Part shown: one piece after another, positions 40,048 through 60,532 of the stretch | Layout of the letters: every line of letters begins with the position of its first letter | How positions within the stretch are numbered: the first letter of the stretch is position 1 | Assembly (NCBI RefSeq): GCF_003217095.1 | Contig: NZ_QJSR01000002.1 | Location: 124,001 to 188,000, forward strand | Length of the DNA stretch: 64,000 nt | Source of the DNA: Rhizobium sp. PP-CC-3A-592 | GTDB lineage: Bacteria; Pseudomonadota; Alphaproteobacteria; Rhizobiales; Rhizobiaceae | Reading direction: 5' to 3' | The notes under the pieces: generated by a model | What the model was told of the DNA's origin: nothing | What the model saw: the letters and a program-made list of their open reading frames with translations, nothing else | Database searches by the model: none | Position numbers and translations under genes: made by a program

Positions 40048-40253
40048 CGATGTTCCTGTCTTGATGACGGCGTCGGGCGACGCATTGACGATGGAAACGG
40101 ATGTAGAGCGTGGGTTACGGATTGCTCATCGCGCCGCGTTCAAGATTATTTTATCGCCGCGTCGGCAAGGCTCTGGCGATCTCTGGATACTCGCGGGCAA
40201 GTCCGGGCGGAAGCATTTGGAGGGCGGGGCGGGGATGGTGTAGATCAGGGCGC

Positions 40254-41354
40254 ATGAAGATCGCATTCTACGCTCCCCTCAAGTCTCCCCGTCACCCGGT
40301 GCCCTCGGGCGACCGGCTGATGTCGCGGCTGATGATGCAGGCGCTCGAGCTTGCCGGGCATCAGGTCGCGCTCGTCTCGGAATTGCGCAGCTTCACGCGC
40401 ACGCCGGAGGAGATCGGCGATCTCGAAGCTGCGGCCGGCGCCGAGCGTGAGCGCATTGCGCAGGACTGGCAGGCGAGCGGCGTGCCCGATTGCTGGTTCT
40501 GCTATCACCCTTATTACAAGGCGCCGGATCTGCTGGGACCATTTCTCTCAAAAGCGTACGGCATCGGTTACGTCACGGTCGAGGCCTCCTATTCGGCGCG
40601 GCGCGACAAAGATGGGTGGGCGCAGGCGCAGGCGGCGCTTTTGGAAACGCTGACGGCGGCGTCCGTCAATATCTGCATGACCGCGCGGGACAAGGTCGGC
40701 ATTCTCGACGGTGCGCCGCATGCGCCCGTCGAGCGGTTGCAGCCGTTCATCGATCCCGCGCTCTTCCTCGCCCGCGATCCCGCGCCGCATCCCGGCCGGC
40801 TCGTGACCGTGGCGATGATGCGTCCGGGCGACAAGATGGACAGTTACCGGATGCTGGCCGACGCGCTGTCGCGCCTGCTGCATCTCCCCTTCACGCTGTC
40901 GATCGTGGGCGATGGCAAGGCGCGTTCCGAGGTGGAGGCCCTGTTCGCGCCGCTCGGGCCCGGCCGGGTCGTGTGGAGTGGAGAGCGAAGTGCGCAAGAG
41001 GTGGCAGCGCTGTTGTCGACCTCCGCGCTTTATGTCTGGCCCGGCTGCGGCGAGGCCTACGGGCTTGCCTATCTGGAAGCGCAGGCGGCAGGTCTGCCCG
41101 TGGTGGCGCAGGCCATTGCCGGTGTTCCCGAGGTGGTGGAGCATGGGCGCACGGGCGTGCTGACGCCGCCGGGCGATGTCGAGGCCTATGCGGAGGCCAT
41201 TGCCGGCTTCCTCAAGGATGAGACGCGACGGCAGGCCATGGGAGCGGAGGCTCGATTGTTTGCGGGGACGGAGCGTGGACTTGCGCCCGCCGCGTCCCGG
41301 CTCGGCGATATTCTCGGCCGGCATGTAGACCTGAAGCGGGAGCCACGGTCATGA
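40254..41354 (+). CDS. Glycosyltransferase, GT4-like
   Basis: A 366-residue GT-B glycosyltransferase. The N-terminus KIAFYAPLKSPRHPVPSGDRLMSRLM is the acceptor-side Rossmann start; the C-terminal domain holds the donor-binding glutamates in GCGEAYGLAYLEAQAAGLPVV and the loop GVPEVVEHGRTGVLTPPGD. No membrane segment is present. ATG 40254 starts at the first beta strand; the open frame before it is not protein-like. It overlaps the deacetylase gene by 4 bp (ATGA), a pairing that suggests both act on the same surface or storage glycan. Confidence 0.87.
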   Translation: MKIAFYAPLKSPRHPVPSGDRLMSRLMMQALELAGHQVALVSELRSFTRTPEEIGDLEAAAGAERERIAQDWQASGVPDCWFCYHPYYKAPDLLGPFLSKAYGIGYVTVEASYSARRDKDGWAQAQAALLETLTAASVNICMTARDKVGILDGAPHAPVERLQPFIDPALFLARDPAPHPGRLVTVAMMRPGDKMDSYRMLADALSRLLHLPFTLSIVGDGKARSEVEALFAPLGPGRVVWSGERSAQEVAALLSTSALYVWPGCGEAYGLAYLEAQAAGLPVVAQAIAGVPEVVEHGRTGVLTPPGDVEAYAEAIAGFLKDETRRQAMGAEARLFAGTERGLAPAASRLGDILGRHVDLKREPRS

Positions 41355-42103
41355 ACACCGATATCACCACCGTCCTCGACCGCTTTCGGGAGGCGGGACA
41401 AGTCGCTCGCTTCTGGCTGCGCGACGATGACGCCAGCGAGCCGACGCCGGCACTTGATCGTCTGCTGGAGTTGACGGAGGCCCACGATGTTCCCCTGACG
41501 CTCGCCGTCATACCGCAGCCGACGGGCGAGGCGCTTGCCGAGCGGTTGGCGCGCGCGCGCCATGTCAGCGTAACGGTGCACGGCTGGCGGCATGCCGATC
41601 ATGCGGCGGAGACGTCCAAGAAGCGGGAACTCGGAGCCGATCGTCCCGTGGATGTCATTCTCGGGGAGCTTTCGGCGGGTTTTACCAAGCTTGCAGCCCT
41701 GCATGGCGACCGATTCCAGCCGGTGCTGGTTCCGCCGTGGAATCGGATCGATCCCGGCCTTCTGCCCCGTCTCTCCGGCCTGGGCTTCCGGGCCCTCTCG
41801 GTTTATGGGCCGGAGAAGCCGGCCGCATTGCCGATGATCAACACGCATGTGGACGTGATGGACTGGCACGGTACGCGCGGCTGCCGCGACCGCGACGCGC
41901 TGCGGCGCGAGATCGTCGCGCGGCTGACCGTCTGCCTGGAACGCGGCGGCAGCATCGGCCTGCTCACTCATCATCTCGTTCATGATGAGGCCGTGTGGGC
42001 GTTTCTTGGCGATCTGTTCGACGCGGCGGCCGCGCATCCTGCTTGCCGCTGGGTTGGGCTTGCCGAGCTTGTCGAAGAGATTGCTGTCGATCAGAAACGG
42101 TAG
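41351..42103 (+). CDS. Polysaccharide deacetylase-family protein
   Basis: A 250-residue carbohydrate-esterase-4-like protein. The motif 1 aspartates are in FWLRDDDASEP (about residues 21-31), motif 2 is the zinc HxxxH type in VHGWRHADHA, and motif 3 is represented by PPWNRIDP. No signal peptide is seen, so it is probably cytoplasmic and may act on a lipid-linked or nucleotide-linked intermediate. It is translationally coupled to the upstream glycosyltransferase. Its 3' end overlaps the tail of the convergent OmpW-like gene by 13 bp. Confidence 0.82.
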   Translation: MNTDITTVLDRFREAGQVARFWLRDDDASEPTPALDRLLELTEAHDVPLTLAVIPQPTGEALAERLARARHVSVTVHGWRHADHAAETSKKRELGADRPVDVILGELSAGFTKLAALHGDRFQPVLVPPWNRIDPGLLPRLSGLGFRALSVYGPEKPAALPMINTHVDVMDWHGTRGCRDRDALRREIVARLTVCLERGGSIGLLTHHLVHDEAVWAFLGDLFDAAAAHPACRWVGLAELVEEIAVDQKR

Positions 42104-44189: not shown

Positions 44190-45020
44190 TCAGAGATCGA
44201 CGACCTGCCCGTCGAACGCAGAAAAGGCGCCGGGGAAGAGGATCTTGGCCTGTCTCTCCACGGCATCGAGCGCGTCGTCGGTGCGGAACGGGGCGTGATG
44301 CATGAAGGCGACGCGCTTGGCGCCGGCGGCCTTGGCAAGACGGATACCCTGTTCCCAGGAGGAGTGACCGTAGCCGACGTGCCGTTCCATCTCGGCGTCG
44401 TCATACATGGCGTCGTAGATGAAGAGGTCGCAGCCTTCGATCAGTTCGAGCACGGCGGGGTCGAGCGTTCCGGGGTGATGTTCCGTATCGGTAATGAGCG
44501 CGCAGGCGCGTCCGCCCCATTCGACGCGGTAGCCGACGGCACCGCCGGGGTGGTTGAGGCTGCCGGTGCGGATCTCGACGCCGCGGACGGGGGTGAGAAG
44601 ATCGCCGGAGCGGAAATCGCGCGCGTCCAGCGCCGCGCGGCAGATATCGGGCTCGACCGGAAACCACGGCGGCCGCATGAATTCGCCGATCATCTGGCGC
44701 GTCGACATGCGTCCGGCGAGATGCCCCGACCAGAGCGTCACGTCGGCGGAATGGTCATAGAGCGGCGGGAAGAAGGGCAGGCCGATGATGTGGTCGTAAT
44801 GACAGTGCGTGAAGAACAGGTTGAACGCGGAGACGCCTTCGGCCTTGAGCGCGACGCCGGCCGGCATCAGGCCCGAGCCTGCATCGAAGATCAGGCGTTC
44901 GCTACCGCATTGCATCTCGATGCACACGGTCCGGCCGCCATAGCGCTGGAACTCGGCCCCCGCTACCGGCAGGCTTCCCCGAACGCCCCAGAAACGTACG
45001 CGAAACAGATTGTCGTTCAC
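44190..45020 (-). CDS. MBL-fold metallo-hydrolase
   Basis: A 276-residue metallo-beta-lactamase-fold hydrolase. The zinc motif is HCHYDH at about 72-77, with GGAVGYRVEW and ALITDTEHHPG later, and a final histidine in FMHHAPFRTDD. The start region FRVRFWGVRGSLPVAG is typical of a group related to PhnP/cyclic phosphodiesterases. GTG 45020 is used because conservation begins there; ATG 45155 is in frame but the extra 45 residues are not protein-like. Substrate unknown; a phosphodiester or cyclic nucleotide is possible. Convergent with the diguanylate cyclase. Confidence 0.85.
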   Translation of the reverse strand: MNDNLFRVRFWGVRGSLPVAGAEFQRYGGRTVCIEMQCGSERLIFDAGSGLMPAGVALKAEGVSAFNLFFTHCHYDHIIGLPFFPPLYDHSADVTLWSGHLAGRMSTRQMIGEFMRPPWFPVEPDICRAALDARDFRSGDLLTPVRGVEIRTGSLNHPGGAVGYRVEWGGRACALITDTEHHPGTLDPAVLELIEGCDLFIYDAMYDDAEMERHVGYGHSSWEQGIRLAKAAGAKRVAFMHHAPFRTDDALDAVERQAKILFPGAFSAFDGQVVDL

Positions 45021-45247
45021 ACTTTGCTTCAGTTTCGACCCGCCCCTTTCGGTGGCTCGCCAACACTGTCCCTCTGCTGTTGCGTGGGTCAGGATCGACC
45101 CCGCCGGCTTCTGTGTCCGGCCGTATTTTTGCCATGTTATCCAAACTGTCCACATGAAGCGAGACGGACATTCGCTTTTTCTCGTTTCTCGTGTCAGAGA
45201 CAGGGGGAACGCTATCCGATCCCGCTTTCGAAACCGTTGCCTTCGCC

Positions 45248-47082: not shown

Positions 47083-47544
47083 TTATTCGAGTTCGCGCAC
47101 GCGGCTGCGGGCTTCCGTGAGTTCGCTTGTCGTGTGGCTCAGGCGGTCGGCCAGCACACGCATGATCTCGATGGTGATTTCAGGAAAATCGGTCAGGAGC
47201 TTGATGAAGTGGTCCTTTCGGATGCGCAGGGCCTCGACCGCGGTGGTCGTCTTCACGGTTGCCGTTCTCGAGACGTCGCAGAGGATGGCGATCTCGCCGA
47301 CGATCGAATTGCGCTCGACTTCGGCCACGCGGATCGGGCCGGTCGAGGATTCCACCAGGATCTCCGCCTTGCCGTCCAGCACGACATAGGCCGCATCACC
47401 GGCATCGCCTTGGTGGAAGAGCGTTTCGCCGATGCCGTAGCTCACGCGGTCCGAGGTGAAGGCCAGCAGCTTCAGCTTGCCGGCTTCCACACCGGAAAAG
47501 AGCGGCACCCGCCGCAGCATTTGCACTTCGTCCTTCAGCAACAT
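47083..47544 (-). CDS. Stand-alone cyclic nucleotide-binding domain protein
   Basis: A 153-residue protein consisting of a single Crp-type cNMP-binding domain. The phosphate-binding cassette GEIAILCDVSRTATV (about 83-97) keeps the key Glu84 and Arg93, so binding of cAMP or cGMP is likely. The C-terminal helix (DRLSHTTSELTEARSRVRELE) looks like a coiled coil; no DNA-binding domain follows. It is the last gene of a long minus-strand run, 109 bp behind the degenerate ABC protein. A role as a regulatory partner of the membrane or glycosyltransferase proteins is inferred from context. Confidence 0.88.
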   Translation of the reverse strand: MLLKDEVQMLRRVPLFSGVEAGKLKLLAFTSDRVSYGIGETLFHQGDAGDAAYVVLDGKAEILVESSTGPIRVAEVERNSIVGEIAILCDVSRTATVKTTTAVEALRIRKDHFIKLLTDFPEITIEIMRVLADRLSHTTSELTEARSRVRELE

Positions 47545-47653: not shown

Positions 47654-50452
47654 TCACGCGGTTACCAACTGTTTAAAGACACCGTCATTGTTTACCAGAT
47701 TGGCGTGCGTGTCATCCTCCACGAGCGCGCCGCGATCAAACACCAGCACGCGCTCGAACAATTTCGTCAGTCCGTTGTTCGACAGCACCCAGATCACGGC
47801 CGGATTGGCGCCGTTGCGGGTGAGCAGCTTCATCACGTCGCGGACGATCTCGTCCTGCAAACGGTGATCGAGGCTCGGGAGGGGGCGGTTGAAGACATAG
47901 TAGTCCGAGCGGCGGATGATGGCGCGGGCAAGGTTCAGCTTCTGCCGCTGGACGGCCGTCAGGCGCTTGCCGCCGGCGCCGAGATTGAAGTCGAGACCGA
48001 TATCCAGCACCTGCTCGATCAGGCCCTGTGAATTCAGCAGCGACGACACGATGGCACGGATGCGCTTGGAGCCGTCGGTGTGCTTGTGGCTGATGCGGCC
48101 GAAGAGCACGTTGTCCATGAGGCTGGCGGAGGCGAGGTATTTTTCCGGGTCGTAGCGCTCGATGTCGTGGGTCAACTCTTCCGGCATGTTTTCGTGGAAC
48201 TGACGGCGGACCTCGACGATTTGCGCCATCAGCGCCTCGGTCAACAGACCGAAGCGGTGGCGGGGCTCGACATAGTTGAAGCTCAGGCGGATGATCTGGT
48301 AGCGATCGTCCTCCGTCGCGGTCTCCAGCCCCTTGCCGGCATATTTCTGAAGCAGCAGCTGGTAGGCCGGGATGTCGTCGGCCGTCATGAAAGTCAGCTG
48401 CTGGAAGAAGGGGTGGTCCGGCGGCAGATCGGCGAAGAGTTCCACCGCGTTCTCGGCGATCTGGTAGCCCATGTCGAAGAGCACGCGGTCGATCCCGGTC
48501 TCCGAGACGACCTTGCGGAAGTAAGGGTTCTTGGCGATGGCGCGGCCGGCCACGCTCGGGGCGGTCGCCGTGCCGAACAGCAGGTTCTCGCCGACGGTGG
48601 CTTCCATATTGTATTCGCCGGGCTCGAAATAGGCGATCAGCCCGTTGAGGCCGGCTTCTTCCAGCTCCTCGCGCAGCGCCTGGCGCATGTCCACGATGCT
48701 GGCCGCAAATTCCGGCCGGTCCGCAGGGTCGATATTGGTGCGAAGCGCGAGGTCGAGAATGTCCTTCGACAGTTGCACGGTGTCGAGCACGGCGAGGATC
48801 GAGGGGAAGAGATCCTCGGCCTGCGTTGCGCCGGCGGCGGTGTAGTCGATCCAGTCGCCATTGACGTCGTAGTCGGGATTTCCGGCGAGCTTGGCTTCCG
48901 TCACTTCCCATTTGCGATGGGCGGCAAGGCTGCCCTCGTAGGTGGCGGCCGCCAGCGGCGCGTGCTTCAGGCCGTAGAGCAGGTTGTCGCGCAGCGAGCC
49001 GTAGAAGAAGTAGGTATCCGACGATGCATAGGTGATCGCCCGACCGACGACGGATTCCGGCATATGCAGCAGATCCTCGCCGCCAAGCGTCACCTTGCCG
49101 CCTTCCGGCCAGATCAGGCGGCCGAAGGCCTCCGCCAGCACGTCGCCGCCACTGGCGGCACCGCCGATGATCGCCACCTTTTCGCCGGGCTTGATCTCGA
49201 CCGAGACATGCTCCAGCAGACGGGCGCCGCTGTCGTCGGCAAGGGTGAGGCCGGAGGCCGCAAGGGCGCCAGACGCTTCGTTTCCGCCACCGCTGGCGGC
49301 TGCCGCAGCACCGGCAAGGCCCGCACCGGCGGCCACGGCGCCGACGGCAACGGCACCGGTGGAAATGGCACCCGTGGAAATCGCCTGGATCTTCGGATCG
49401 ATCAGCGGCTCGACCGTGAACTGCTCGACCACCTGGACGTATTTCACCTGCACGTCCTGACGCAGCTGGTCCCAGTCGATCAACTCTTTCAGAGGCCCTG
49501 GCAGATCCTTGTAGGCGCTGATGACGGCGACGAGCTGGCCGATGTCGAGCTGTCCGCGCAGGGCCAGATAGCCGCCGATGCAGTAGAACAGGAAGGGCGT
49601 CAGCTGCGCGAGGAAGTTGTTGATGAACTTCACCATGAACTTCCACTGGTAGAGATCGTAGCGGATCTTGTAGATCCGCCCCAGCCGCGCGGCCACGTCG
49701 GCGCGCTCGTAGTTCGAGGTGTCGTAGGCGTGGATGGTGCTGATACCGTCGACGATCTCGCTGACGCGGCCGGCAAGCTCACGCGCGGTGATCTGGCGCT
49801 CGCGGCCGAGCACCAGCAGGCGGCGGCGCATGCGCGGGATGATGGTCGCCTGGATGCCGACCATGAAGGCGGCGATGAAGCCGAGCCACATGTTCTGCAT
49901 GAAGATGAAGGCAAGCGCCGTCAGGGCCTGTCCGCCGAGCAGAGCCGGCGAGACGAAGGCGTCGCCCGTGAAGCCGCCGAGCGGTTCGACCTCGTCCTTG
50001 ACCATGGAGGAGACTTCCGCCCCCTTCATGCGCTTGAACTGGGTCGGCGGGAACCGGAGGATGCGATCGATGAGCTCGAAGCGGATGCGGCGCAGCAGGC
50101 GCTCGCCGAGCCGGCCCTTGTAGGTGTTGATGTAGAGCTTGAAGAGGCCGTTGATGATGACGAGCAGGAGAAAGATGACGCTCAGCGCATAGAGCGTTTC
50201 CATGCGCGTCAGGTCGATGCCGTTGAACAGCGTGACGTTGCCGATCCACGGAAGGGAGAAGGAAATGTCGAAGAACCGCTCGGTCGCGCCCGGCTGCTCG
50301 AAACCCTTTCCCTGTATGGGCCCGTTGACGATCTGCTTGGGCAGATCGAATGACAGGAAGTAGGGGATCATCGACACGGCGACGATCATGAGGATCCACA
50401 TCTGCTGCTTGCGCGTGTGGGTCCAGATGTAACGGGTAAGGCGGATATCCAT
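47654..50452 (-). CDS. ABC exporter-like protein with a non-catalytic, expanded nucleotide-binding domain
   Basis: A 932-residue protein. Residues 1-345 form an exporter-type transmembrane domain (RLGERLLRRIRFELIDRILRFP, then SEIVDGISTIHAYD). An Ala/Gly/Ser-rich linker (about 357-402) follows, then an ABC-like domain (403-932). Its P-loop is GGAASGGD at 430-437, lacking the lysine; the signature region reads LTAVQRQKLNLARA (831-844) instead of LSGGQ; Walker B is YVFNRPLPSLD, lacking the Asp and Glu. About 270 extra residues carry three copies of the helical-subdomain motif: NLLYG (490-494), NLLFG (623-627), NVLFG (781-785). ATP hydrolysis is not expected. ATG 50452 is chosen by domain start; a GGAGGAGA site 40 bp upstream leaves it uncertain. 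Confidence 0.85.
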   Translation of the reverse strand: MDIRLTRYIWTHTRKQQMWILMIVAVSMIPYFLSFDLPKQIVNGPIQGKGFEQPGATERFFDISFSLPWIGNVTLFNGIDLTRMETLYALSVIFLLLVIINGLFKLYINTYKGRLGERLLRRIRFELIDRILRFPPTQFKRMKGAEVSSMVKDEVEPLGGFTGDAFVSPALLGGQALTALAFIFMQNMWLGFIAAFMVGIQATIIPRMRRRLLVLGRERQITARELAGRVSEIVDGISTIHAYDTSNYERADVAARLGRIYKIRYDLYQWKFMVKFINNFLAQLTPFLFYCIGGYLALRGQLDIGQLVAVISAYKDLPGPLKELIDWDQLRQDVQVKYVQVVEQFTVEPLIDPKIQAISTGAISTGAVAVGAVAAGAGLAGAAAAASGGGNEASGALAASGLTLADDSGARLLEHVSVEIKPGEKVAIIGGAASGGDVLAEAFGRLIWPEGGKVTLGGEDLLHMPESVVGRAITYASSDTYFFYGSLRDNLLYGLKHAPLAAATYEGSLAAHRKWEVTEAKLAGNPDYDVNGDWIDYTAAGATQAEDLFPSILAVLDTVQLSKDILDLALRTNIDPADRPEFAASIVDMRQALREELEEAGLNGLIAYFEPGEYNMEATVGENLLFGTATAPSVAGRAIAKNPYFRKVVSETGIDRVLFDMGYQIAENAVELFADLPPDHPFFQQLTFMTADDIPAYQLLLQKYAGKGLETATEDDRYQIIRLSFNYVEPRHRFGLLTEALMAQIVEVRRQFHENMPEELTHDIERYDPEKYLASASLMDNVLFGRISHKHTDGSKRIRAIVSSLLNSQGLIEQVLDIGLDFNLGAGGKRLTAVQRQKLNLARAIIRRSDYYVFNRPLPSLDHRLQDEIVRDVMKLLTRNGANPAVIWVLSNNGLTKLFERVLVFDRGALVEDDTHANLVNNDGVFKQLVTA

Positions 50453-50600: not shown

Positions 50601-51770
50601 TCACGCGTCCGACAGCATGTCGCGCAGGATATCGGCCGTCCTGTCGGCGCCCTCGAGGTCGATCGAGAGATCGCCTTGCTGGAAGGCCGGAGCATCGAGA
50701 CCGGAGCGGATGGCCGCGGCGACCCGCTCGGCCGAAATGTCTGAATCGCTGAGCACTGTCACGAGGCCGAGATGCTCCAGGCGTTCGGCACGAGCCGCCT
50801 GTTCGGTTTCGCCGCCTGTCGTGAACGGCACGACGATCGCCCGGCAGCGCGCCCGCAGAATATCGCAGACCGTGTTGTAGCCGGCCTGCGACACCGAGAG
50901 GGTCGCGCCCGAAAGGAGGCTCGCGAAGTCGGGGCGGAAGCGGAAGACCTTGACATTGCCGACGACGCCGGCGGCGATCGCATCGTGGTCGGCCTGCGCG
51001 AGGTTCGGACCTGTTATCAGCGCCCAGGGTTTTTCCGGCCGGAGGATGGCGGTGGCGCCGACGACCGCGTGCAGCACGTGCCGGCCGACAGCGCCGCCGC
51101 CGGCCGAGACGATCACCTCGAAACGGTCTGCCGGGGCGTCGGGCTGCGGCGGGGCGACGAGGCCGGTATAGACCACCTTGTCGGCGATCTCGTCGGCATG
51201 GGGAAAGGTCTCCTCCAGCCTTGCGAAGGTCGGGTCCCCATGGATCAGGATACGATCGAAATAGCGGTCGATATAGTCCACCGTCTCGCGGTCGCGCTCC
51301 GGTTTCGGGCGCTTTTGCAGGATATCGCGCACGGAGGCGAAGATTTTCGGCGGCTCGGGCATGGCGCGGGCGGCGTCGAGGAAGGGCAGAAGCTCGAAGC
51401 GCATCTGACGCCGGCCGAACGGAAAGGCCTCGGTAAGGATGGCATGCGGCCTGATCTCGTGGAGGATGGCGACCAGCCGGTCGCGGCGCATGTCGCGGAA
51501 GGCGTCATCGACCGGATTGCCGTCCATGTCCTGCAGGGCAGAAAAGCCCTCATCGCTGGAGACGACCGGCGGCAGCGCGATGTGGCGGACGGCTGGGCCG
51601 GGGAAACCGGACACGGGCTTGCCACCGGTGACGACCGTCACGTCGAAGCCGCGCACGGCCAGCGCGTTGGCAATGCGGCTCGCGCGGGTCAGGTGGCCGA
51701 TGCCGAGCAGGTGCTGGACGTAGAAGAGAACGCGTTTCGTTTCCGGATCGGTCATTCGGCTGTCCGCCAT
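50601..51770 (-). CDS. Glycosyltransferase, MurG/GT28-like
   Basis: A 389-residue GT-B protein. The N-terminus has VLFYVQHLLGIGHLTRASRIANAL, the GHxxR acceptor loop of MurG-like enzymes; the C-terminal donor domain has SAGGGAVGRHVL, ATLSVSQAGYNTVCDIL and a PFTTGGETEQAARAERLEHLG loop resembling that of MurG. No membrane helices. ATG 51770 gives a 19-bp overlap with the upstream GT4 gene; ATG 51755 is the alternative. With the two other glycosyltransferases it probably builds a lipid-linked glycan on the inner membrane. Donor and acceptor sugars are unknown. Confidence 0.83.
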   Translation of the reverse strand: MADSRMTDPETKRVLFYVQHLLGIGHLTRASRIANALAVRGFDVTVVTGGKPVSGFPGPAVRHIALPPVVSSDEGFSALQDMDGNPVDDAFRDMRRDRLVAILHEIRPHAILTEAFPFGRRQMRFELLPFLDAARAMPEPPKIFASVRDILQKRPKPERDRETVDYIDRYFDRILIHGDPTFARLEETFPHADEIADKVVYTGLVAPPQPDAPADRFEVIVSAGGGAVGRHVLHAVVGATAILRPEKPWALITGPNLAQADHDAIAAGVVGNVKVFRFRPDFASLLSGATLSVSQAGYNTVCDILRARCRAIVVPFTTGGETEQAARAERLEHLGLVTVLSDSDISAERVAAAIRSGLDAPAFQQGDLSIDLEGADRTADILRDMLSDA

Positions 51771-52996
51771 TCGGTTTCAAAGAGATTGCGAAGCTGGGTG
51801 ATGCTGGTGTGGTAGTCGAAATCCTTGCGGACGCGCCGCTCGGCGGCGTCACCGAGCCGCTTGCGGCGATCGGGATCGCGGATGGCGCGCTCCAGGGCGT
51901 TCGCGATCGCCTCGGGGTTCTCGGGCGGAACGAGCAGGCCGTTCTCATCGTTCGACAGAAGCTCCGGCACGCCGGAGATCGTGGTGGAGAGGCAGACGAG
52001 GCGCTGGCTTGAGGCCTCGACGATCACGTTCGGCAAGCCGTCGCGGTCGCCATCCGCGCCGATGCGGCAGGCGAGCGCGAAGATGTCGGAGGCCCGATAG
52101 CGCGCGAGAACGTCCTCCTGTGCCATGGCGCCCAGCCAGTCGATGCGATCCGCGATGCCGAGGTCGGTTGCCATGTCCTTCAGGGATTTGGCGAGCGTGC
52201 CGCCGCCGATATGAACGAAGCGCCAAGCGAGATCGGCGGGCAGGCTCGCTAAGGCCTTGAGGAGCAGGTCGTAACCCTTCTTTTCCACAGCGCGGCCGAC
52301 GCTGAGAATGACGACGGGGTCAGTGGGATCGCTGCCGTCGCGCGGGCGGCGCTCCTGCGTGAAGGGTGCGAAGCGGGCGAGGTCGAGGCCGTGATAGCTC
52401 AGATGCACGGTCGTCTTGTCGGCGGCCAGCGTGCGCAGGTGGTGGAAGCCGGTTTCGGTGCAGGTCACGGTCCAGCGGTTGGTGGCGAGCTTGTCGGTCA
52501 GCTCCCAGTCGGGCGAGGTCCAGATGTCCTTGGCATGGGCCGAGCATGTCCACGGGATGCCGGTCAGGAGGCTGGTATAGGCGGCGACGGATGCGGGCGT
52601 GTGGATGAAGTGGGCGTGCAGCCAGTCTCCACCCTCCGGCCATTCCGCGGCAAGGACGGCGGCCTGGCCGAAGCGGCGGACCCGGTTGCGCGAGACATCG
52701 CGCGCCAGGTCGCGGCGGAAGGCTGTAAACGCCTTTCGGAAACCGGGACGCCGGGCCGCCGCCCACAACCCGCGCAGCACGCGCAGCGGCTCGTGGTGCA
52801 GATATTCGGGGAGGTAGAGAACCGGCGCGCGGATTTCGTCGTGAACGGGATGACGCTTCCTGTCGGTCGGATGGCGCATCGAAATCAGCGACAGTTCCAG
52901 CCCGGACTGTTCAAGGCCCAGCAGTTCCTGCGCGATGAAGGTTTCCGACAGGCGCGGATAACCCTTCAGGATGACGACGATCTTGCGGCTTTGCAT
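51752..52996 (-). CDS. Glycosyltransferase, GT4 family
   Basis: A 414-residue GT-B enzyme. The start is KIVVILKGYPRLSETFIAQELLGL, the pattern of exopolysaccharide-type GT4 proteins (YPRLSETF). HAHFIHTPASVA lies in the N-terminal domain, VGRAVEKKGYDLLLKAL begins the C-terminal domain, and DGLPNVIVEASSQRL carries the donor-binding Glu. It is 6 bp behind the first GT28-like gene and overlaps the second, so the three are co-translated. Retaining chemistry with a nucleotide sugar is expected. Confidence 0.88.
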   Translation of the reverse strand: MQSRKIVVILKGYPRLSETFIAQELLGLEQSGLELSLISMRHPTDRKRHPVHDEIRAPVLYLPEYLHHEPLRVLRGLWAAARRPGFRKAFTAFRRDLARDVSRNRVRRFGQAAVLAAEWPEGGDWLHAHFIHTPASVAAYTSLLTGIPWTCSAHAKDIWTSPDWELTDKLATNRWTVTCTETGFHHLRTLAADKTTVHLSYHGLDLARFAPFTQERRPRDGSDPTDPVVILSVGRAVEKKGYDLLLKALASLPADLAWRFVHIGGGTLAKSLKDMATDLGIADRIDWLGAMAQEDVLARYRASDIFALACRIGADGDRDGLPNVIVEASSQRLVCLSTTISGVPELLSNDENGLLVPPENPEAIANALERAIRDPDRRKRLGDAAERRVRKDFDYHTSITQLRNLFETEWRTAE

Positions 52997-53002
52997 GACG
53001 TT

Positions 53003-54211
53003 TCAGGCCTTGACGACGCTCAAATGGTCGCGTTCGCGCCCGTCTAGCATGTTGCCGACGATCCGGGAAATATTACTCAGGCCGTCGAGATGCATGTTGC
53101 TGGCATGATGGGAGGGCGGCGCGCGGTGCGGCAGGGCATGAAGGGCGGCGGCCAGCCGCTTGGGATCGGCGGCCTCTTGTGGCAGCAGCATATCGACGAG
53201 CCCGAGTTCGCTGGCGCGGCGGGCGCGGATCAGTTGTTCCTCGCGCGGGACGACGCGCGGTACGATCAGGGCAGGTTTGTCGAAGGAGAGGATCTCGCAA
53301 TAGGTGTTGTAGCCGCCCATGGCAACGACGCCGCTGGCATTGGCGATCAGCTCTTCCATGCGGTTGTCGAACTCGATCACCGTCAGGTGCGGGGTCAGCG
53401 CGCATTTCGACAGCAGCTTGTGGCGCTGCTTTGCCGGCATGTAGGGGCCGAGCACGACGAAAGACGGGTGCGTCAATGTCGGGTCGGCGCGGTAGGCGTC
53501 CACCACGTCGTGGATGAGGTCGGAGCCATCGCCGCCGCCGCCGGTGGTGATGAGGATGTAGTCGCCCTTCGGCTTGTGCTCGGAGCTGACGTCGAGCGAG
53601 ACGCTGCGCTGGAGGAAGCCGACGAAATCCATGCGGGCGCGGACCTGCGCCGGCACGTCGAGACCGACCAGCGGATCGTAGAAATCAGGCGGGCCGTAGA
53701 CCCAGACGGTATCGTAGAACTGGCCGATCTTGCGCATCACGTCGTTGCGCTTCCACTCGGCGTCGAGCAGATGCGGCGCGTCCATGACCTCGCGCAGGCC
53801 AAGCACCAGCGTCGTGCCCTGATGCTTGAGGTAGGACAGCGTGTCCTCGACCTCGCCGCGAAGCCCCATCGGTTCCTTGTCGACGATGAAGATGTCGGGC
53901 TTGAAGGTCTCGGCCGTGTGCCGGATGATCGACCGGCGCATCTTCAGCGTCTCGTTCAGATCGATATGCCGATCCATCGAGGTGTATTCGCCGTTGCGCA
54001 GCTTGATGACGCTCGGGATCTTTACGAAATCGACGCGGGCCCGGTAATCATAGGCACCGGCGATGGTCGCGCCCGAAATGATCAGAACCTGCAGGCCGCG
54101 ATAGTCCTCGACGAGCGCATGCGCGATCGCCCGGCACCGCCGCAGGTGGCCGAGACCGAACGTATCGTGGCTGTACATGAGGATGCGGGCATTCTCGATG
54201 CGACGCGTCAT
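53003..54211 (-). CDS. Glycosyltransferase-like protein, MurG/GT28-like
   Basis: A 402-residue GT-B protein related in design to the gene at 50.6-51.8 kb: ILMYSHDTFGLGHLRRCRAIAHAL at the N-terminus, TTGGGGDGSDLIHDV at the inter-domain hinge, and AMGGYNTYCEILSFDKPALIVPRVVPREEQLIRA in the donor site. ATG 54211 is used because GGAG is 9 bp upstream; GTG 54217 would add two residues. It is the first of three consecutive glycosyltransferases and starts 45 bp after the peptide-importer operon on the same strand, so read-through is possible. Confidence 0.83.
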   Translation of the reverse strand: MTRRIENARILMYSHDTFGLGHLRRCRAIAHALVEDYRGLQVLIISGATIAGAYDYRARVDFVKIPSVIKLRNGEYTSMDRHIDLNETLKMRRSIIRHTAETFKPDIFIVDKEPMGLRGEVEDTLSYLKHQGTTLVLGLREVMDAPHLLDAEWKRNDVMRKIGQFYDTVWVYGPPDFYDPLVGLDVPAQVRARMDFVGFLQRSVSLDVSSEHKPKGDYILITTGGGGDGSDLIHDVVDAYRADPTLTHPSFVVLGPYMPAKQRHKLLSKCALTPHLTVIEFDNRMEELIANASGVVAMGGYNTYCEILSFDKPALIVPRVVPREEQLIRARRASELGLVDMLLPQEAADPKRLAAALHALPHRAPPSHHASNMHLDGLSNISRIVGNMLDGRERDHLSVVKA

Positions 54212-54256
54212 CGGCACGGCTCCACGCGCAGGGCAGGCTTCATCACCATGGAAAAC

Positions 54257-55474
54257 TCACTTGTACGGATCAGCCGCATCTCTAAGTCCATCGCCCAGAA
54301 AGTTAAAGGCCAGGATGACGAGAATGACCGGAATGGTTGGGTAGAGCAACCATGGATAAAAAGCGATGGTACTGACGCTGCGCGCTTCCGTCAGGAGAAT
54401 GCCCCAGCTGGTAATCGGCGGACGCAGGCCGAGACCGAGGAAACTCAAGGCGGTTTCGCCGAGAATCATCGCCGGGATCGACATGGTCGCGCTGGCGATC
54501 AGGTGCGACATGAAGCCGGGCACGAGGTGGCGGCCGATGATGCGGCTGGTCTTTGCCCCCATCAGCTGTGCCGCGAGCACGTAGTCTTCCTCGCGCAGGG
54601 CCAGCAGCTTGGAGCGCACCGCGCGGGCAAGGCCTGTCCAGTCGAGAAGGCCGAGGATGGCGGTGATGCCGAGATAGATGACAAGGGGGCTCCATGTCAC
54701 CGGCATGATGGCCGCAAGCGCCATCCAGAGCGGAATGCTCGGGATCGACTGCAGCACCTCGATGACGCGCTGGACGATGAGGTCGAAGACACCGCCCTTA
54801 TAGCCGGCAAGGCCGCCGATGACGATGCCGAGAATGAAGCTCATCGTCACGCCGAGCAGGCCGATGGTGAGCGAGATGCGGGCGCCGTAGAGAATGCGCG
54901 ACAGCACGTCGCGACCGAGCCGATCGCTGCCGAGCATGAAGAACTGCCCGCCCTGTGCCGGACAGACGAAATGGAGCGAGGCGGGAACGAGGCCCCAGAA
55001 ATTATAGGCGTCACCGCTGCAGAAGAAGCGCAGCTTCTCGATCCGCTCGGGATCTTCCGTATAGACGCGGCGCAGCGTGTCCATGTCGAGGTTCATCGTG
55101 CGGCCGTAGACGAACGGGCCGACGAACTGGCCGTCATCGAACAGGTGCACCTGCTGCGGCGGCGCGTGGATGAAATCGACGTTGCGGGTGTGCAGGTTGT
55201 AAGGCGCCAGGAACTCGACGATCGTGACCATCGCATACAGCAGAACGAGGAAGACGAGCGAGATGACGGCAACCCGGTGCCGCTTGAACTTCCACCACAT
55301 CAACCGAAGCTGGGATGCCTCATAGACGTGTCTCTGCTCCTCGCTCATCGTTTCCACGGCCATCGGATCGAAGGGGGCTGCGGAAACGAAGTGCGTCAGG
55401 GGCTGGCCGGGTGCGGGCAGGCAGGCGGGTGGCCCGCTGGGGGACGTCGTGGACGGCGGATGCGTTGCGGTCAC
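54257..55474 (-). CDS. Oligopeptide ABC transporter permease, OppC/DppC type
   Basis: A 405-residue permease with a long N-terminal cytoplasmic extension (about 1-65), one helix, a large periplasmic loop (about 92-195), then five helices with the EAA motif VLAAQLMGAKTSRIIGRHLVPG. The GSDRLGRDVLSRILYGARISL segment is diagnostic for OppC. The start is GTG 55474, coupled to the OppB stop (GTGA). The loop and extension make it longer than most DppC proteins. Last gene of ATPase-SBP-OppB-OppC. The substrate is unknown; it may be an oligopeptide or an opine-like compound. Confidence 0.92.
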   Translation of the reverse strand: MTATHPPSTTSPSGPPACLPAPGQPLTHFVSAAPFDPMAVETMSEEQRHVYEASQLRLMWWKFKRHRVAVISLVFLVLLYAMVTIVEFLAPYNLHTRNVDFIHAPPQQVHLFDDGQFVGPFVYGRTMNLDMDTLRRVYTEDPERIEKLRFFCSGDAYNFWGLVPASLHFVCPAQGGQFFMLGSDRLGRDVLSRILYGARISLTIGLLGVTMSFILGIVIGGLAGYKGGVFDLIVQRVIEVLQSIPSIPLWMALAAIMPVTWSPLVIYLGITAILGLLDWTGLARAVRSKLLALREEDYVLAAQLMGAKTSRIIGRHLVPGFMSHLIASATMSIPAMILGETALSFLGLGLRPPITSWGILLTEARSVSTIAFYPWLLYPTIPVILVILAFNFLGDGLRDAADPYK

Positions 55475-56469
55475 TTCGTGCTGCCCCCCTGGAGCCGGAT
55501 GCGCGGATCGAGCAGCGCCAGCGCGATGTCGGAGACGAGCACGCCGATGACGGTGAGGAAGGCGAGGAACATCAGGAACGACCCGGCGAGATACATGTCC
55601 TGGCTCTGCAGCGCCTTGATGAGCATCGGCCCGGTGGTTTCCAGCGACAGCACGATGGCCGTGATTTCGGCACCGGAGATGATGGCCGGCAGGATCGAGC
55701 CGATGTCGGCGATGAAGAAGTTGAGGGCCATGCGGAGCGGGTACTTCACCAGTGCCCGGAAGGGATGAAGACCCTTCGCCTTCGCCGTCACCACATATTG
55801 CTTCTGGAGTTCATCGAGCAGGTTGGCGCGCAGGCGGCGGATCATGCCGGCCGTTCCCGCGGTGCCGATGATGATGACGGGGATCCAGAGATGCTCGAGG
55901 ATCGACAGGAACTTGTCCCAGCTCATCGGCTGCGACAGATATTTCTGGTCCATGAGGTGCCCGATGGACGTACCGAACCACATGTTGGCGAAGTACATAA
56001 GGATCAACGCGAACATGAAATTGGGAATGGCAAGGCCGAGCAGGCCGAGAAAGGTCAGGCCGTAATCGCCCCAGCTGTACTGATGCGTGGCCGAGTAGAT
56101 GCCGATCGGGAAAGCGATGAGCCAGGTGAAGATGATGGTCACGAAGGAGACGAGAACCGTCAGCCAGAGCCGGTCACCGACGACGTCGGAGACCGGCAGC
56201 TGGTATTCGAACGAGTAGCCGAAATCGCCCTGCAGCATGCCGGCGACCCAGTGGAAGTAGCGCATGATCGGCGGGCGGTCGAAGCCGTATTCGGCCCGCA
56301 GCGCCTCAATCTCCGCCATATCGACGCCTTCGCCCTGGGCGCGCATTTCCGAGATATAGCTCTCGAAATAATCGCCCGGGGGAAGTTCGATGATGGTGAA
56401 GACGAGGGCCGAGATAATGACGAGCGTCGGGATCATGGCACTGACGCGCCAGAGAATGTATCGCAGCAT
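55471..56469 (-). CDS. Oligopeptide ABC transporter permease, OppB/DppB type
   Basis: A 332-residue six-helix permease. It starts LRYILWRVSAMIPTLVIISALVF, has DFGYSFEYQLPVSDVVGDRL in the periplasmic loop and the EAA-like QKQYVVTAKAKGLHPFRALVKYPLRMAL. It pairs with the OppC-like protein. Its ATG is 3 bp after the binding-protein stop, and its end overlaps the next gene by 4 bp. Domain layout and length are standard for the family. Confidence 0.93.
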   Translation of the reverse strand: MLRYILWRVSAMIPTLVIISALVFTIIELPPGDYFESYISEMRAQGEGVDMAEIEALRAEYGFDRPPIMRYFHWVAGMLQGDFGYSFEYQLPVSDVVGDRLWLTVLVSFVTIIFTWLIAFPIGIYSATHQYSWGDYGLTFLGLLGLAIPNFMFALILMYFANMWFGTSIGHLMDQKYLSQPMSWDKFLSILEHLWIPVIIIGTAGTAGMIRRLRANLLDELQKQYVVTAKAKGLHPFRALVKYPLRMALNFFIADIGSILPAIISGAEITAIVLSLETTGPMLIKALQSQDMYLAGSFLMFLAFLTVIGVLVSDIALALLDPRIRLQGGSTK

Positions 56470-56472
56470 CGA

Positions 56473-58395
56473 TCAGCTCACCTTGTCGCCGAGCCAGAAC
56501 GTATCCGGCATGTAGACCCCGAAGAAGCAGGTCGGATCGAAGCCGTAGAGGCCCTGTTCCGGAACGTTCTGCATGCGCGATGTATGAAGGATCGGCTGGA
56601 GCGTGGCGTTGACCATGCCGATGGAATAGACCTGATCGGTATAGATCGACAGCATCTCGTGCCAGATCCGCGTGCGGCCCGCATTGTCGGCCGTGCGGCG
56701 CCATTCCTTCAGCAGGTCCACCAGCTTCTGCGCTTCGGGGAGTTCCGGCGCATGACCGAACTGGCCGAGCGACAGGTAATGCATGCCCCAGACCGGCCAT
56801 TGCAGCTGGTCGTCGGTGCTCGGGGCCAGCGAGCTCGGGCTCATGTCGGCCGTAGGCACGCCATTGGAGAGCCCGAGCCACATGGACATCATGATCTCGC
56901 CGCCCATGGTGCGGTTTCGGAAGACCTCGCGCTGGGAGGTCTTGATGAAGAGCGGGATGCCGATCTTTGCCCAGTGATCGGTCACGAGTTCGAGGACGTC
57001 GGTTTCCAGCGTGCTCTCGCCCGCGGTTTCCACGACGATCTGCGCGAGGCGGCCATCCGGCAGAAGGCGCATGCCGTCCTCGTTGCGGCCGGTCAGGCCT
57101 GCTTCGTCCAGCAGGCGGTTGGCCTGCTCGGTGTCATGCTGCGACCAGGCGGCGGCATATTCCGGCTTGTAGAGCGGGCTCTCCGGCAGCACGGTATCGG
57201 CGCTTTCCGTGCCCAGGCCGTAGAAGGCGACCATGTTGATCTCGCGCCGGTCGATGGCGAGCGAGAGGGCGCGGCGAACGCGGACGTCGCGCAACAGGCC
57301 CTGCCAGACGGGGTCGCCGTAATTGAGGTTTGGCAGCAGCGCAACGCGCGATCCTTGCGTGCGCTTCCACAGCTTCACCTTCACCGGATACCGCTTTTCG
57401 GAATCCTTGATAAAGGCATAGTCGGTAAAGTCGATGTTCTGCGCCTGCAGGTCGGCTTCGCCGCCGCCGGTCTTTGCGGCGATGATGCCGGGTGTGGAGA
57501 CGTTGAGGACCACACGGTCGATATAGGGAAGCTGCATCCCGTTTTCGTCGACGCGGTGGAAGAAGGGGTTCCGGTCGAAGATGAACTGTTCGGCCGGCGA
57601 GGCCGTCGTGTTCTGCCACGGGTCGAGCGTCGGCAGGTCCGGATTGTCGGGCCGGTTCTGGCGCGACATCTTGATGTGCAGGTCCGCCCACTTCTTAACG
57701 CGGTACTTCTTCATGAAGGTCTTGAGCTGTTCCTCGGTCTGGTACTTTTTGTGGAACTGCTTCATGTAGGCGGCGGGCAAGAGCAGGATCAGCGGCAGTG
57801 CCGCCGCGAGATTGGGCAGGAAATCGGGGTTGGGCGCATCCCAGCTGTAGCGAACGGTGCGCGCGTCGAGGACCTCGAAACGCGGCGGTTTGCCATCCGC
57901 GAGAAGCTCCTGCTGCACGCCGCCCTTGCGCAGGTCCTCGTTCAGGACCACGTCTTCCCAGGTATACCGGAAGTCTTCCGACGTGAGCGGGCTTCCGTCC
58001 GACCAGCGATGGCCCTCGCGAATGCGGAAGGTGAAGACCTTCTCGCCCTCGACCTCGCAGGCCTCCAGAATATCCGGCTGGAAACTCAGCTTCTCGTCGT
58101 AGCCGACCAGACGGGCATAGCCGTTGATGAACATCGCGCGGATGTCCTTCTGGCTGCCGATGAGGATGCGGATGGAACCGCCATAGCTGCCGGGTGTGCG
58201 GCCCATGGCGGCGAGGTTGACGATGCGCGGCGTCTTCGGCACGCGCTCGATCATCGGCGGCAGGGTTCCGGCCGTGATCTTTTCGAGAAGGATCTCGGGC
58301 TCCGTCCCCGCGGCCATGGCCGTGCGTGGAAACACGAGGCGGGGCAGGGCGATGGCGGAGGCGAGGAGGCCGAGGGTGGTGCGGCGCTTGATCAC
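56473..58395 (-). CDS. Oligopeptide ABC transporter substrate-binding protein (family 5)
   Basis: A 640-residue periplasmic SBP of the peptide/nickel cluster. A twin-arginine leader is at the N-terminus ([16 protein letters not shown] ... AMAAG). The core has FRIREGHRWSDGSPLTSEDFRYTWED, the usual family-5 signature, and VRRALSLAIDRREINMVAFYG. It is about 100 residues longer than DppA, as in groups binding larger ligands. The ATG overlaps the ATPase stop by 4 bp. Tat export suggests folding before translocation. Ligand unknown. Confidence 0.92.
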   Translation of the reverse strand: MIKRRTTLGLLASAIALPRLVFPRTAMAAGTEPEILLEKITAGTLPPMIERVPKTPRIVNLAAMGRTPGSYGGSIRILIGSQKDIRAMFINGYARLVGYDEKLSFQPDILEACEVEGEKVFTFRIREGHRWSDGSPLTSEDFRYTWEDVVLNEDLRKGGVQQELLADGKPPRFEVLDARTVRYSWDAPNPDFLPNLAAALPLILLLPAAYMKQFHKKYQTEEQLKTFMKKYRVKKWADLHIKMSRQNRPDNPDLPTLDPWQNTTASPAEQFIFDRNPFFHRVDENGMQLPYIDRVVLNVSTPGIIAAKTGGGEADLQAQNIDFTDYAFIKDSEKRYPVKVKLWKRTQGSRVALLPNLNYGDPVWQGLLRDVRVRRALSLAIDRREINMVAFYGLGTESADTVLPESPLYKPEYAAAWSQHDTEQANRLLDEAGLTGRNEDGMRLLPDGRLAQIVVETAGESTLETDVLELVTDHWAKIGIPLFIKTSQREVFRNRTMGGEIMMSMWLGLSNGVPTADMSPSSLAPSTDDQLQWPVWGMHYLSLGQFGHAPELPEAQKLVDLLKEWRRTADNAGRTRIWHEMLSIYTDQVYSIGMVNATLQPILHTSRMQNVPEQGLYGFDPTCFFGVYMPDTFWLGDKVS

Positions 58396-60326
58396 GGCTG
58401 GAGCTCCTTCACGTCGACATTCCGGCTTGCCAGCACCCAGTGACCGTTGCCGAGATCGGCGGGCGCAAGGCCGGCATCGCTTTCGCCCGGCCGGAAGGCG
58501 GCGTTCCAGCGCTTCTTATCGGAGGCCCCGCCGGCATTGAGTGCGACGAAGTCGAGCGGCCGGTCGAGGTCGGGGAAGGGCACGGCGGCCAGCAGCGCCT
58601 TGGTATAGGGGTGAACCGGCGCGCGCATCAGCTGTTCGCGCGGCGCAAGCTCGACGATCCGTCCGGCGCACATGACGGCGATACGGTCGGCCATGTAATC
58701 GACAACGGCGAGATTGTGCGAGATGAAGAGATAGGTCAGGCCGAGTTCCGCCTGCAGGTCCTTCAGGAGGTTGAGGATCTGCGCCTGCACGGACACGTCG
58801 AGTGCGGAGACCGGCTCGTCGCAGATCAGCAGTTCGGGCCCGAGTGCCAGAGCGCGGGCGATGCCGATGCGCTGGCGCTGCCCGCCGGAGAAGCTGTGGG
58901 GATAGCGGTTCATGTGCCGCTCGTTGAGGCCGATGGCCTTCAGCAGCGCCTTCACCGTCTGCTGCCGGCTCTTCGGATCGCCGCGGCGATGGATCTCGAG
59001 CGGTTCGCTGAGGATGTTCTGCACCGTCATGCGCGGCGAGAGCGACGAGACGGGATCCTGAAAGATCATCTGCATGCGGGTGCGCAGTCTCTCCAGCGAC
59101 TTGCCATGAGCCTCGCGGATGTCGATCGGGCCATCGGCCGAGTTCAGCATGATCGAGCCGGTGTCCGGCGAGAGCGCCCGCATCAGGATCTTGCTGAGCG
59201 TCGTCTTGCCGCAGCCGCTTTCGCCCACGAGCCCCAGACATTCGCCGCGCCGGATGTCGAAGCTCACATCATCGACCGCGCGATACTGGTTGGCCTTGCC
59301 CTTCTTCCACCAGCCGGACGTGCGGCTGGAAAACGTCTTGCCGACATGGCGTACGGAGAGGAGCACATCCTCGCCCGGTGCCGGTAGCGTATCCTCGACG
59401 CGGGGTAGCGGTCGCGCGGGCGCACGTTCGCCCTTGCGCCGCACGATCAGGCTCTCGACGTTGACAGGCACCTCGCGCAGCGCCTTCAGGCGCTCGCCGG
59501 GCTTCATGTCGAAATGCGGCACGGCCGCCATCAGCCCCTTTAGATAGGGGTGGGACGGATTGCGGAAGATATCCTCCACCGAACCCGCCTCCATGATCTC
59601 GCCGTGATAGATCACCACGACCTCGTCGGCCATGTTGGCGACGATGCCGAGATCGTGGGTGATGAGCAGCACGGCCATGTTGAAGGTCGATTGCAGATCC
59701 TTCAGCAATTGCAGGATTTGCGCCTGGATGGTCACGTCGAGCGCCGTCGTCGGCTCGTCGGCAATCAGGAGTGACGGCTTGCAGATCAGCGCCATGGCGA
59801 TCATCGCGCGCTGGCGCATGCCGCCGGAAAGCTCGAAGGGATACATGCCGAAGGCACGCTTGGGGTCGGGGAAGCCGACGAGACGCAGCATCTCTTCGGT
59901 CTGTTCCCGCTGTCCCGGCTTGTCGACGTTGCGATGGATGCGCAGGCTTTCGCTGATCTGGTCGCCGATCGTGTGGAGCGGCGACAGCGAGGTCATCGGC
60001 TCCTGGAAGATCATGCCGATGCGGTTGCCGCGGAAGGCGCGCATGTCGGCCCCCTCGGGCGCGAGCGCCGCGAGATCGATCACACCGCCCGGTGCCGTCT
60101 CATCCTTGAAGAGGATCTTGCCGCCGATCCTCGCCGATCTCGGCAGGATGCCCATGACGGCCTGGCTGATCACGGATTTTCCGGACCCGGACTCGCCCAC
60201 GAGCGCCGTGACCTTGCCCGGCAGGACCCGGAGGCTCGCCTTTCGAACCGCGTCGATCTGGCCGCCGAACATGGCGAAAGAAACGCTCAGGTCCTCGATC
60301 CGCAGCAGGTCTCCGCCTGATGTCAT
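58392..60326 (-). CDS. Oligopeptide ABC transporter ATPase, DppD-DppF fusion
   Basis: A 644-residue double ATPase. NBD1 (about 1-290) has [24 protein letters not shown] and [14 protein letters not shown]2 (about 320-600) has [24 protein letters not shown] and [11 protein letters not shown]. Each is followed by a [15 protein letters not shown] oligopeptide motif. Both sites look catalytically complete. ATG 60326 is chosen because GGGGA lies about 9 bp upstream and the protein then begins [18 protein letters not shown] 60338 and TTG 60386 are longer options. First gene of the importer operon, 206 bp behind the cyclase. Confidence 0.92.
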
Positions 60327-60532
60327 GCCTGCCATTCCCCACTTATTCTCTCCATCCGGTGCGGATGGTGGCTGGCTTTGCGCCAATACCTTATGGGAAG
60401 ACTATCGCAGGCATTTCGGCCTGTCCATGACCGCAATGGAAACCGCACGGTCACGCCTTCCCGGCGTCGGCTGCGGGTCTAGCGTCGTCATGTATCGTTT
60501 TTTTGAAATGATGCCCCGCGGCTAAACAATTT

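Follow-up and report, generated by a model that had tools for sequence, protein, structure and literature searches.

ATP-binding cassette (ABC) transporters are defined by ATP-driven transport. In CFTR, SUR and the degenerate-site heterodimers, proteins of the exporter fold use at least one non-catalytic site for gating or regulation; to our knowledge, each of these complexes keeps at least one competent site, and each half of the known heterodimers still contributes to one full site. Heterodimeric exporters with a degenerate nucleotide-binding site have been described (PMC7756269). The cyanobacterial ABC exporter HetC combines a C39 peptidase domain with an N-terminal cyclic-nucleotide-binding (cNMP) domain and depends on an ATPase residue (PMC10986499). 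MsbA2 (SMb21191), a polysaccharide exporter of Sinorhizobium meliloti, is encoded beside glycosyltransferase genes (PMC3687685). Here we analyze a stretch of 64,000 nucleotides from Rhizobium sp. PP-CC-3A-592 (contig NZ_QJSR01000002.1; "the window"), in which the gene at 47654-50452 (minus strand) is predicted to encode a catalytically dead ABC exporter-like membrane protein, a member of a large alphaproteobacterial family. Judged by sequence, the ATPase site of the rhizobial members is dead, and the pocket of a small cNMP-binding partner looks alive. We found no published description of the protein, its insertion or its pairing with a cNMP protein in openly available main texts (subscription papers and supplements fall outside this scope). 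The gene, its parts and its partner are as follows.

47654..50452, minus strand: pseudo-ABC exporter-like protein, 932 amino acids (translation, Pfam, orthologues)
49517..50215, minus strand: ABC exporter transmembrane domain, residues 80-312 (Pfam ABC_membrane)
49277..49381, minus strand: Ala/Gly/Ser-rich linker, about residues 358-392 (translation, orthologue alignment)
49142..49165, minus strand: degenerate P-loop GGAASGGD, residues 430-437, with Lys replaced by Gly and Ser/Thr by Asp
48971..48997, minus strand: motif copy 1, SLRDNLLYG, residues 486-494, at the ordinary Q-loop position
48143..48970, minus strand: core of the family-specific insertion, residues 495-770, source of profile A4
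48569..48715, minus strand: duplicated block, copy one, residues 580-628, ending in TVGENLLFG (619-627) (profile-profile comparison)
48095..48238, minus strand: duplicated block, copy two, residues 739-786, ending in SLMDNVLFG (777-785) (profile-profile comparison)
47942..47962, minus strand: degenerate signature LTAVQRQ, residues 831-837
47867..47899, minus strand: degenerate Walker B YVFNRPLPSLD, residues 852-862, with Asp-Glu replaced by Asn-Arg
47083..47544, minus strand: cNMP_binding protein, 153 amino acids, with the phosphate-binding cassette GEIAILCDVSRTATV (Pfam)

Translation bears out the six motifs that the original prediction had read from the DNA, with every residue number it gave being correct: a P-loop without lysine, three copies of the motif that normally comes after the Q-loop (starting at 486, 619, and 777), and an aberrant signature and Walker B (starting at 831 and 852). 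It also confirms the spacing of about 400 residues from P-loop to signature. The exporter membrane domain expected at that time is present, with an ABC_membrane match of 79.5 bits over residues 80-312. The Pfam ABC_tran match reaches 31.9 bits (cut-off 25) and covers residues 413-510 only; a further alignment, to exporters of solved structure, covers residues 769-930. The top NCBIfam profile is MsbA_lipidA (TIGR02203) at 144.8 bits, far below its cut-off of 602, which leaves the protein outside the MsbA equivalog. The long linker is confined to the window protein and four of 80 orthologues (lengths of 927-947 against 900-905 residues). Orthologue conservation from residue 1 on backs the start at 50452 (the start codon of each orthologue was picked as the one nearest to this position), and a longer open reading frame (ORF), up to 50695, overlaps the upstream gene. 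An antisense open frame of 757 residues (48080-50353, plus strand) lies opposite the ABC gene; it is probably a high-GC artefact, because many such frames occur in the window.

Six core ATPase features were scored in a single MAFFT alignment, on which all feature counts rest: the Walker A Lys, the Ser/Thr next to it, the Walker B Asp, the catalytic Glu, the H-loop His (column 891), and SGGQ. The window protein and those of 80 rhizobial loci, which are the best 80 of at least 580 relatives and carry titles naming Hyphomicrobiales, keep none of the six in any of the 81 sequences, in agreement with the degraded site first predicted. The window protein departs from the Walker A pattern GxxGxGK[ST] with Gly at the Lys position and then Asp, and Lys occurs in 0 of 81. 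It has LTAVQ in place of LSGGQ (second-position Ser in 0 of 81), Asn-Arg in Walker B and Ser in the H-loop (Asp, Glu and His each in 0 of 81). The replacements are regular: the Lys position holds Gly or Ala and the next one Glu or Asp, the Walker B Asp is Asn in 81/81, and the catalytic Glu is Arg in 70/81.

Erosion is graded across the wider family. We examined 70 further homologues, made up of 29 loci from a search of the class (own genome excluded), 40 picked for diversity, and locus L085 from Ruegeria; shares among them are unlike those of a random sample because of the diversity picks. The Walker A Lys is retained in 40, the Walker B Glu in 33, and the H-loop His in 20. Where the Lys is kept, it is followed by Glu or Asp in 27 proteins and by Ser or Thr in four. 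No homologue has all six features; one has five, five have four, and 12 have none. The least eroded, at L151 (6992-9628, minus strand), has a GKT Walker A, a DE Walker B, the H-loop His, and the signature LSGAQ, and is possibly close to the ancestral state. The original prediction had named a normal Walker A lysine in orthologues as one observation that would refute it, and the answer is divided: the lysine is absent from the 80 close orthologues and present in more than half of the distant ones. In a membrane-domain tree of 56 rows, made by a quick method, the rhizobial rows all fall together (support 100), nested in a 26-row group (support 100) whose other rows mostly keep the Lys, and Lys presence or absence requires 14 changes over the whole tree. 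The loss of the Lys is best taken to be derived and the insertion to be older.

The original prediction had overlooked the cNMP-binding partner, the glycosyltransferase neighborhood, and the size of the family. In the 153-residue partner, cNMP_binding is the sole Pfam domain, and no DNA-binding domain was matched. The partner gene is directly downstream on the same strand in all 80 rhizobial loci, its open frame starting -357 to +170 bases from the end of the ABC frame. We scanned 89 further homologues (deduplicated, above 700 bits, loci L085-L201, some also rhizobial) and counted a partner as adjacent if it was on the same strand with its frame starting from 3500 bases before to 700 bases after the ABC frame end. 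The partner is adjacent in 70, fused in 15, and not found in four, so that 85 of 89 are linked. In Ruegeria, the ABC protein itself ends in the cNMP domain, and Pfam places cNMP_binding at the C-terminus of all four fused proteins scanned; fused proteins cluster on the tree, where the nine fused rows among the 56 need two changes. In CRP, a Glu and an Arg of the phosphate-binding cassette hold the cyclic nucleotide. The corresponding pocket residues are mostly conserved here: of 169 aligned rows (one per locus, some loci being repeat fetches of one place), 160 have the Glu and 167 the Arg. These residues may hold a cyclic nucleotide here too.

The stretch between P-loop and signature contains an insertion of about 290 residues. 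In alignments with solved exporters, the single ordinary motif is matched twice, by residues up to 496 (copy 1) and again by residues from 769 (copy 3); from copy 3 the sequence runs on into an ordinary helical subdomain and signature. Two inserted units lie between copies 1 and 3. The ends of these units match each other over 48 columns (580-628 against 739-786; probability 98%, E 1e-14, a single profile-profile comparison). In 10 genomes out of 31, the insertion profile matches the copy-3 region a second time within the same open frame, with E values from 5e-7 to 6e-6; the window's own genome gave no second match at that limit. These second matches are not generic ABC similarity, because the PDB set contains many ordinary exporters and the insertion matches none of its sequences at E up to 1. 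Against Pfam the insertion gave no convincing family: just six came up, at E 0.03-0.09, none of them in more than one of 53 members.

We conclude that a tandem duplication within the insertion, as detected by profile comparison, brings the motif to three copies. The original prediction of a triplicated helical subdomain holds in that the repetition is real and the second halves of the inserted units are clearly duplicated; a repeat as long as the unit is unsupported. The helices after the motif give local scores of 23.1, 21.4, and 28.2, against 18.8, 19.3, and 18.9 for the best of 60 column shuffles. Each pair outscores 60/60 shuffles, yet the probabilities are low (26, 12, and 48%), and aligning whole units end to end fails, at 2, 0.03, and 10%. 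There is a weaker case for repetition of the first helix of the helical subdomain across the three copies. We dropped the wider claim because only this post-motif helix beats the shuffles, weakly, and end-to-end alignment fails. A full, exact triplication that includes the signature helix and the Walker B strand was likewise rejected, since profile comparison without the ENLLFG motif fails end to end. Five divergent relatives (L137 and L192-L195, from genomes G283, G528, G629, G506, and G513) have the same insertion and a poorly matching membrane domain; L137 has an extra insertion at the signature. None of the five has a closely adjacent cNMP gene, and weak cNMP matches are located 0.9 and 4 kb downstream in L193 and L194.

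The sampling of genomes was even but partial. A scan of one genome per species matched at least 594 stretches; with E limited to 1e-3, at least 580 of these encode a relative of some kind. Under the stricter limit of E 1e-60, the protein profile has matches in 131 of 385 genomes at class level, 70 of 151 at family level, and 32 of 398 at phylum level, and the sole out-of-class match in the phylum sample is a membrane-domain-only ORF. A profile of the insertion alone matches 31 of the 398 (E up to 1e-5); all 31 holders are the genome itself or members of the same family, order or class (the out-of-class share of the 398 is unstated). Rhizobium, Sinorhizobium, Azospirillum, and Ruegeria are among the holders in a plasmid collection. 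Some relatives comprise the membrane domain only, as open frames of 382-547 residues between stops; these were seen at L086:11773-13242, L188:6920-8194 (minus strand), L189:6770-7981, L190:6719-7984, and L191:1-1146, with no nucleotide-binding domain found within the same loci. A Phaeobacter plasmid copy of this kind is inside a copper-handling gene cluster.

The gene is under strong purifying selection and is not decaying. In the three closest pairs, the whole-gene ratio of nonsynonymous to synonymous substitution (dN/dS) is 0.042, 0.026, and 0.056, with values by domain of 0.00-0.09, and the dead domain is about as constrained as the rest of the gene. Two more distant pairs have whole-gene values of 0.19 and 0.13. 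The mean share of the majority residue among the 81 rhizobial proteins is 0.88 in the membrane domain, where 178 of 345 positions are invariant, and 0.72-0.75 in the halves of the dead domain and the insertion. A decaying gene or an assembly artefact would show similar motif loss; this explanation is refuted by the low dN/dS, the full-length frames in most matching genomes listed, and the regular replacement residues, and we give it almost no credence. A pseudogene is ruled out by dN/dS and conservation. In the plasmid records CP130056.1 (S. meliloti, H50) and NZ_CP104133.1 (Sinorhizobium sp. K101, H7) the protein match is split in two, which may reflect frameshifts or sequencing errors.

The ABC gene and its partner end a series of ORFs on the same strand, in the order Opp-type importer (from 60386 downwards), three glycosyltransferases, ABC gene, and cNMP gene. 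The neighbors considered are as follows.

50601..51770, minus strand: GT28-like glycosyltransferase
51752..52996, minus strand: GT4 glycosyltransferase
53003..54217, minus strand: second GT28-like glycosyltransferase
54257..60386, minus strand: Opp-type peptide importer (permease, permease, binding protein, double ATPase)
60533..61873, minus strand: class III nucleotidyl cyclase domain protein (Pfam Guanylate_cyc, 37.5 bits, cut-off 21.9)
40110..41354, plus strand: GT4 glycosyltransferase, a recurring neighbor
41351..42103, plus strand: possible polysaccharide deacetylase, recurring (Pfam, 18.2 bits, below the cut-off of 23.1)

Neighbor counts are bounded by flank length and by simple ORF calls. 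The wider loci number 42 (40 picked places plus L085 and L088), with flanks of mostly about 6-7 kb. Each of the three glycosyltransferases has homologues in most rhizobial loci (70, 70, and 69 of 80) and in about half of the wider ones (20, 19, and 20), counts in which one gene may be entered twice because the GT28-like pair shows mutual similarity. When 56 loci were clustered independently, a GT4 cluster (F1) was recovered in 20 and a GT28 cluster (F2) in 18. Opp importer genes are found in 64-73 of the rhizobial loci, and three of the four in just 4/42 wider loci. The recurring GT4 gene is present in 33/80 rhizobial and 17/42 wider loci, and the possible deacetylase in 28/80 and 13/42. A nucleotidyl cyclase is present in the window array and in S. 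meliloti arrays; cyclase matches occur in 15/80 rhizobial loci, three of them over more than 60% of its length, and the window cyclase is just over 10 kb from the ABC gene, which is the flank limit for the 80 loci. Near the gene pair, the window also encodes an MBL-fold hydrolase (44190-45155, minus strand; 30/80 rhizobial loci) and a calcineurin-like phosphoesterase (45191-46978, plus strand; 14/80), both possible candidates for cyclic-nucleotide or glycan enzymes.

The orthologue in S. meliloti 1021 is located on pSymB at 841723-844432, and we assigned locus tags by gene order in the annotated strain R28. The R28 order begins with GT4, polysaccharide deacetylase, MBL-fold hydrolase, nucleotide sugar dehydrogenase, cyclase, and polysaccharide lyase. 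It continues with four Opp-type genes, a glycosyltransferase, a GT4, a glycosyltransferase, and a methyltransferase on the opposite strand, and ends with the ABC protein, a Crp/Fnr-type protein, and an FkbM methyltransferase. Nine genes between smb21252 and smb21271 are reported to be required for PPP, an uncharacterised surface polysaccharide that shields against phazolicin and is possibly tied to symbiosis (PMC10128002). Mutants in the glycosyltransferase genes smb21252 and smb21265 are about eight times more sensitive to phazolicin (minimal inhibitory concentration, MIC, 0.18 against 1.47 ug/mL); the same paper names cyclic AMP (cAMP) as a regulator of possibly involved genes and reports that cyaA insertions were depleted (PMC10128002). 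Seven of the nine PPP genes are induced under attack by Myxococcus (PMC10315480). SMb21245 is near 813.5 kb and SMb21257 is an adenylate cyclase (PMC12542648), and the cAMP-dependent regulator Clr acts, perhaps indirectly, on a neighboring polysaccharide cluster that extends up to smb21248 (PMC5498481). With these published anchors in agreement with the R28 order, smb21252-smb21271 most likely includes the ABC protein and its partner. Locus tags of that region were not found in the main text of a paper on sensitivity to NCR247 (PMC5539429).

We put at about one chance in two the proposal that the ABC protein is a cyclic-nucleotide-responsive pseudo-ABC component of envelope-glycan production, with a role in synthesis or translocation. 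The small cNMP protein would dock on the eroded nucleotide-binding domain and the insertion, and binding of cAMP or a similar nucleotide, instead of ATP hydrolysis, would set the conformation of the membrane domain. The rhizobial complex would serve the envelope-glycan pathway of the neighboring glycosyltransferases (PPP in S. meliloti), either as a gated path, not driven by ATP, for a glycan or lipid-linked precursor or as a membrane hub that switches glycan synthesis on. We infer the contact between the ABC protein and its partner, the identity of the ligand, and the control of glycan movement or synthesis. In a stronger form, which we consider less likely than not, the ATP motor would have been abandoned and swapped for a cyclic-nucleotide sensor subunit, with several stages of motor loss visible across Alphaproteobacteria, and the membrane domain would still pass substrate without ATP, as a cyclic-nucleotide-gated translocase or valve for an envelope glycan.

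Several observations count against the proposed glycan component. About half of the 42 wider loci have no glycosyltransferase homologue in the flanks examined, and F1 and F2 are absent from 13/13 fused loci in the 56-locus clustering; a glycan role may therefore be limited to part of the family. That the ABC gene and its partner are among the nine PPP genes is something we infer from gene-order mapping. The cyaA mutant has a phazolicin MIC of 0.74 against 1.47 (PMC10128002), and because this change is slight the link between cAMP and PPP is weak. The cNMP domain of HetC bound ppGpp, and cAMP was without effect (PMC10986499). The pocket residues of the partner suggest cyclic-nucleotide binding and do not prove it. 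Four of the 89 further homologues are partnerless even with 9.0, 1.8, 2.0, and 2.9 kb scanned downstream, the last three stretches stopping at a contig end. Three of these (L102, L108, and L111) form a group on the tree (support 87) and retain four of the six ATPase features, a hint that the partner may accompany stronger erosion of the site; L151, with five features, and L116, with four, do have a partner and run counter to this hint. In the pair of the window gene and L006, the first of the two more distant pairs (0.19 over the whole gene), dN/dS is 0.34 in the N-terminal part of the dead domain against 0.16 in the membrane domain.

A pure regulatory or scaffold protein, whose membrane domain moves no substrate and which with the cNMP protein anchors or switches cytoplasmic glycosyltransferases, would be a bacterial analogue of SUR, a non-transporting ABC protein. 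The loss of all six ATPase features in the rhizobial proteins and the glycosyltransferase genes adjacent in most rhizobial loci would suit it. However, the membrane domain is the best conserved part, as expected if a substrate is handled (docking could also explain this), and the family persists where no glycosyltransferase cluster member is nearby, so we regard this explanation as unlikely. We find it improbable that the protein is half of a heterodimeric exporter of the TM287/288 type, paired with an ATP-competent half-transporter encoded elsewhere, although degenerate sites have precedent in such exporters and the host genome holds 45 further, weaker ABC matches. No exporter half-gene was found in the annotated S. 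meliloti array or among the window neighbors scanned, where the ABC genes are importer-type, and the rhizobial protein has lost the signature as well as the Walker residues. The same losses bear on an exporter that is still ATP-driven and whose divergent residues bind and slowly hydrolyze ATP. The retained Lys, His, and Glu of many distant members, and L151 above all, favor it, and distant members with both Lys and Walker B Glu may bind or hydrolyze ATP, which is a further point against the proposed glycan component. For the rhizobial proteins, with 0/6 features, this explanation is quite improbable; no member of either set reaches 6/6, and Ser or Thr rarely follows a retained Lys.

If the proposed glycan component is correct, it would suggest a membrane component and a signal input for PPP, which is reported to shield S. 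meliloti against an antimicrobial peptide (PMC10128002). The graded erosion of the ATPase, with membrane domain, insertion, and sensor partner retained, also offers a natural series for studying the path from pump to regulator, valve or passive translocase.

The protein shares with MsbA-like (type IV or B-family) exporters the exporter membrane domain and a recognizable nucleotide-binding domain. In contrast to MsbA, the rhizobial protein lacks the Walker A Lys, the Walker B Asp and Glu, the H-loop, and LSGGQ, and it has the insertion and the cNMP partner. Unlike the degenerate-site heterodimers, CFTR, and SUR, it shows no competent site and has no exporter half nearby. The gene resembles that of MsbA2 in adjoining glycosyltransferase genes, but MsbA2 belongs to another pSymB locus and operon, around 938 kb, with an acyltransferase and two glycosyltransferases; identity with the msbA2 locus was rejected on this difference of place. 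No C39 peptidase domain was matched by Pfam in the window protein or in nine long homologues scanned. HetC is the nearest precedent found, in the main texts available, for an exporter combined with a cNMP-type sensor domain; the family described here instead encodes the sensor separately or carries it at the C-terminus, and its rhizobial members have an ATPase site that appears dead.

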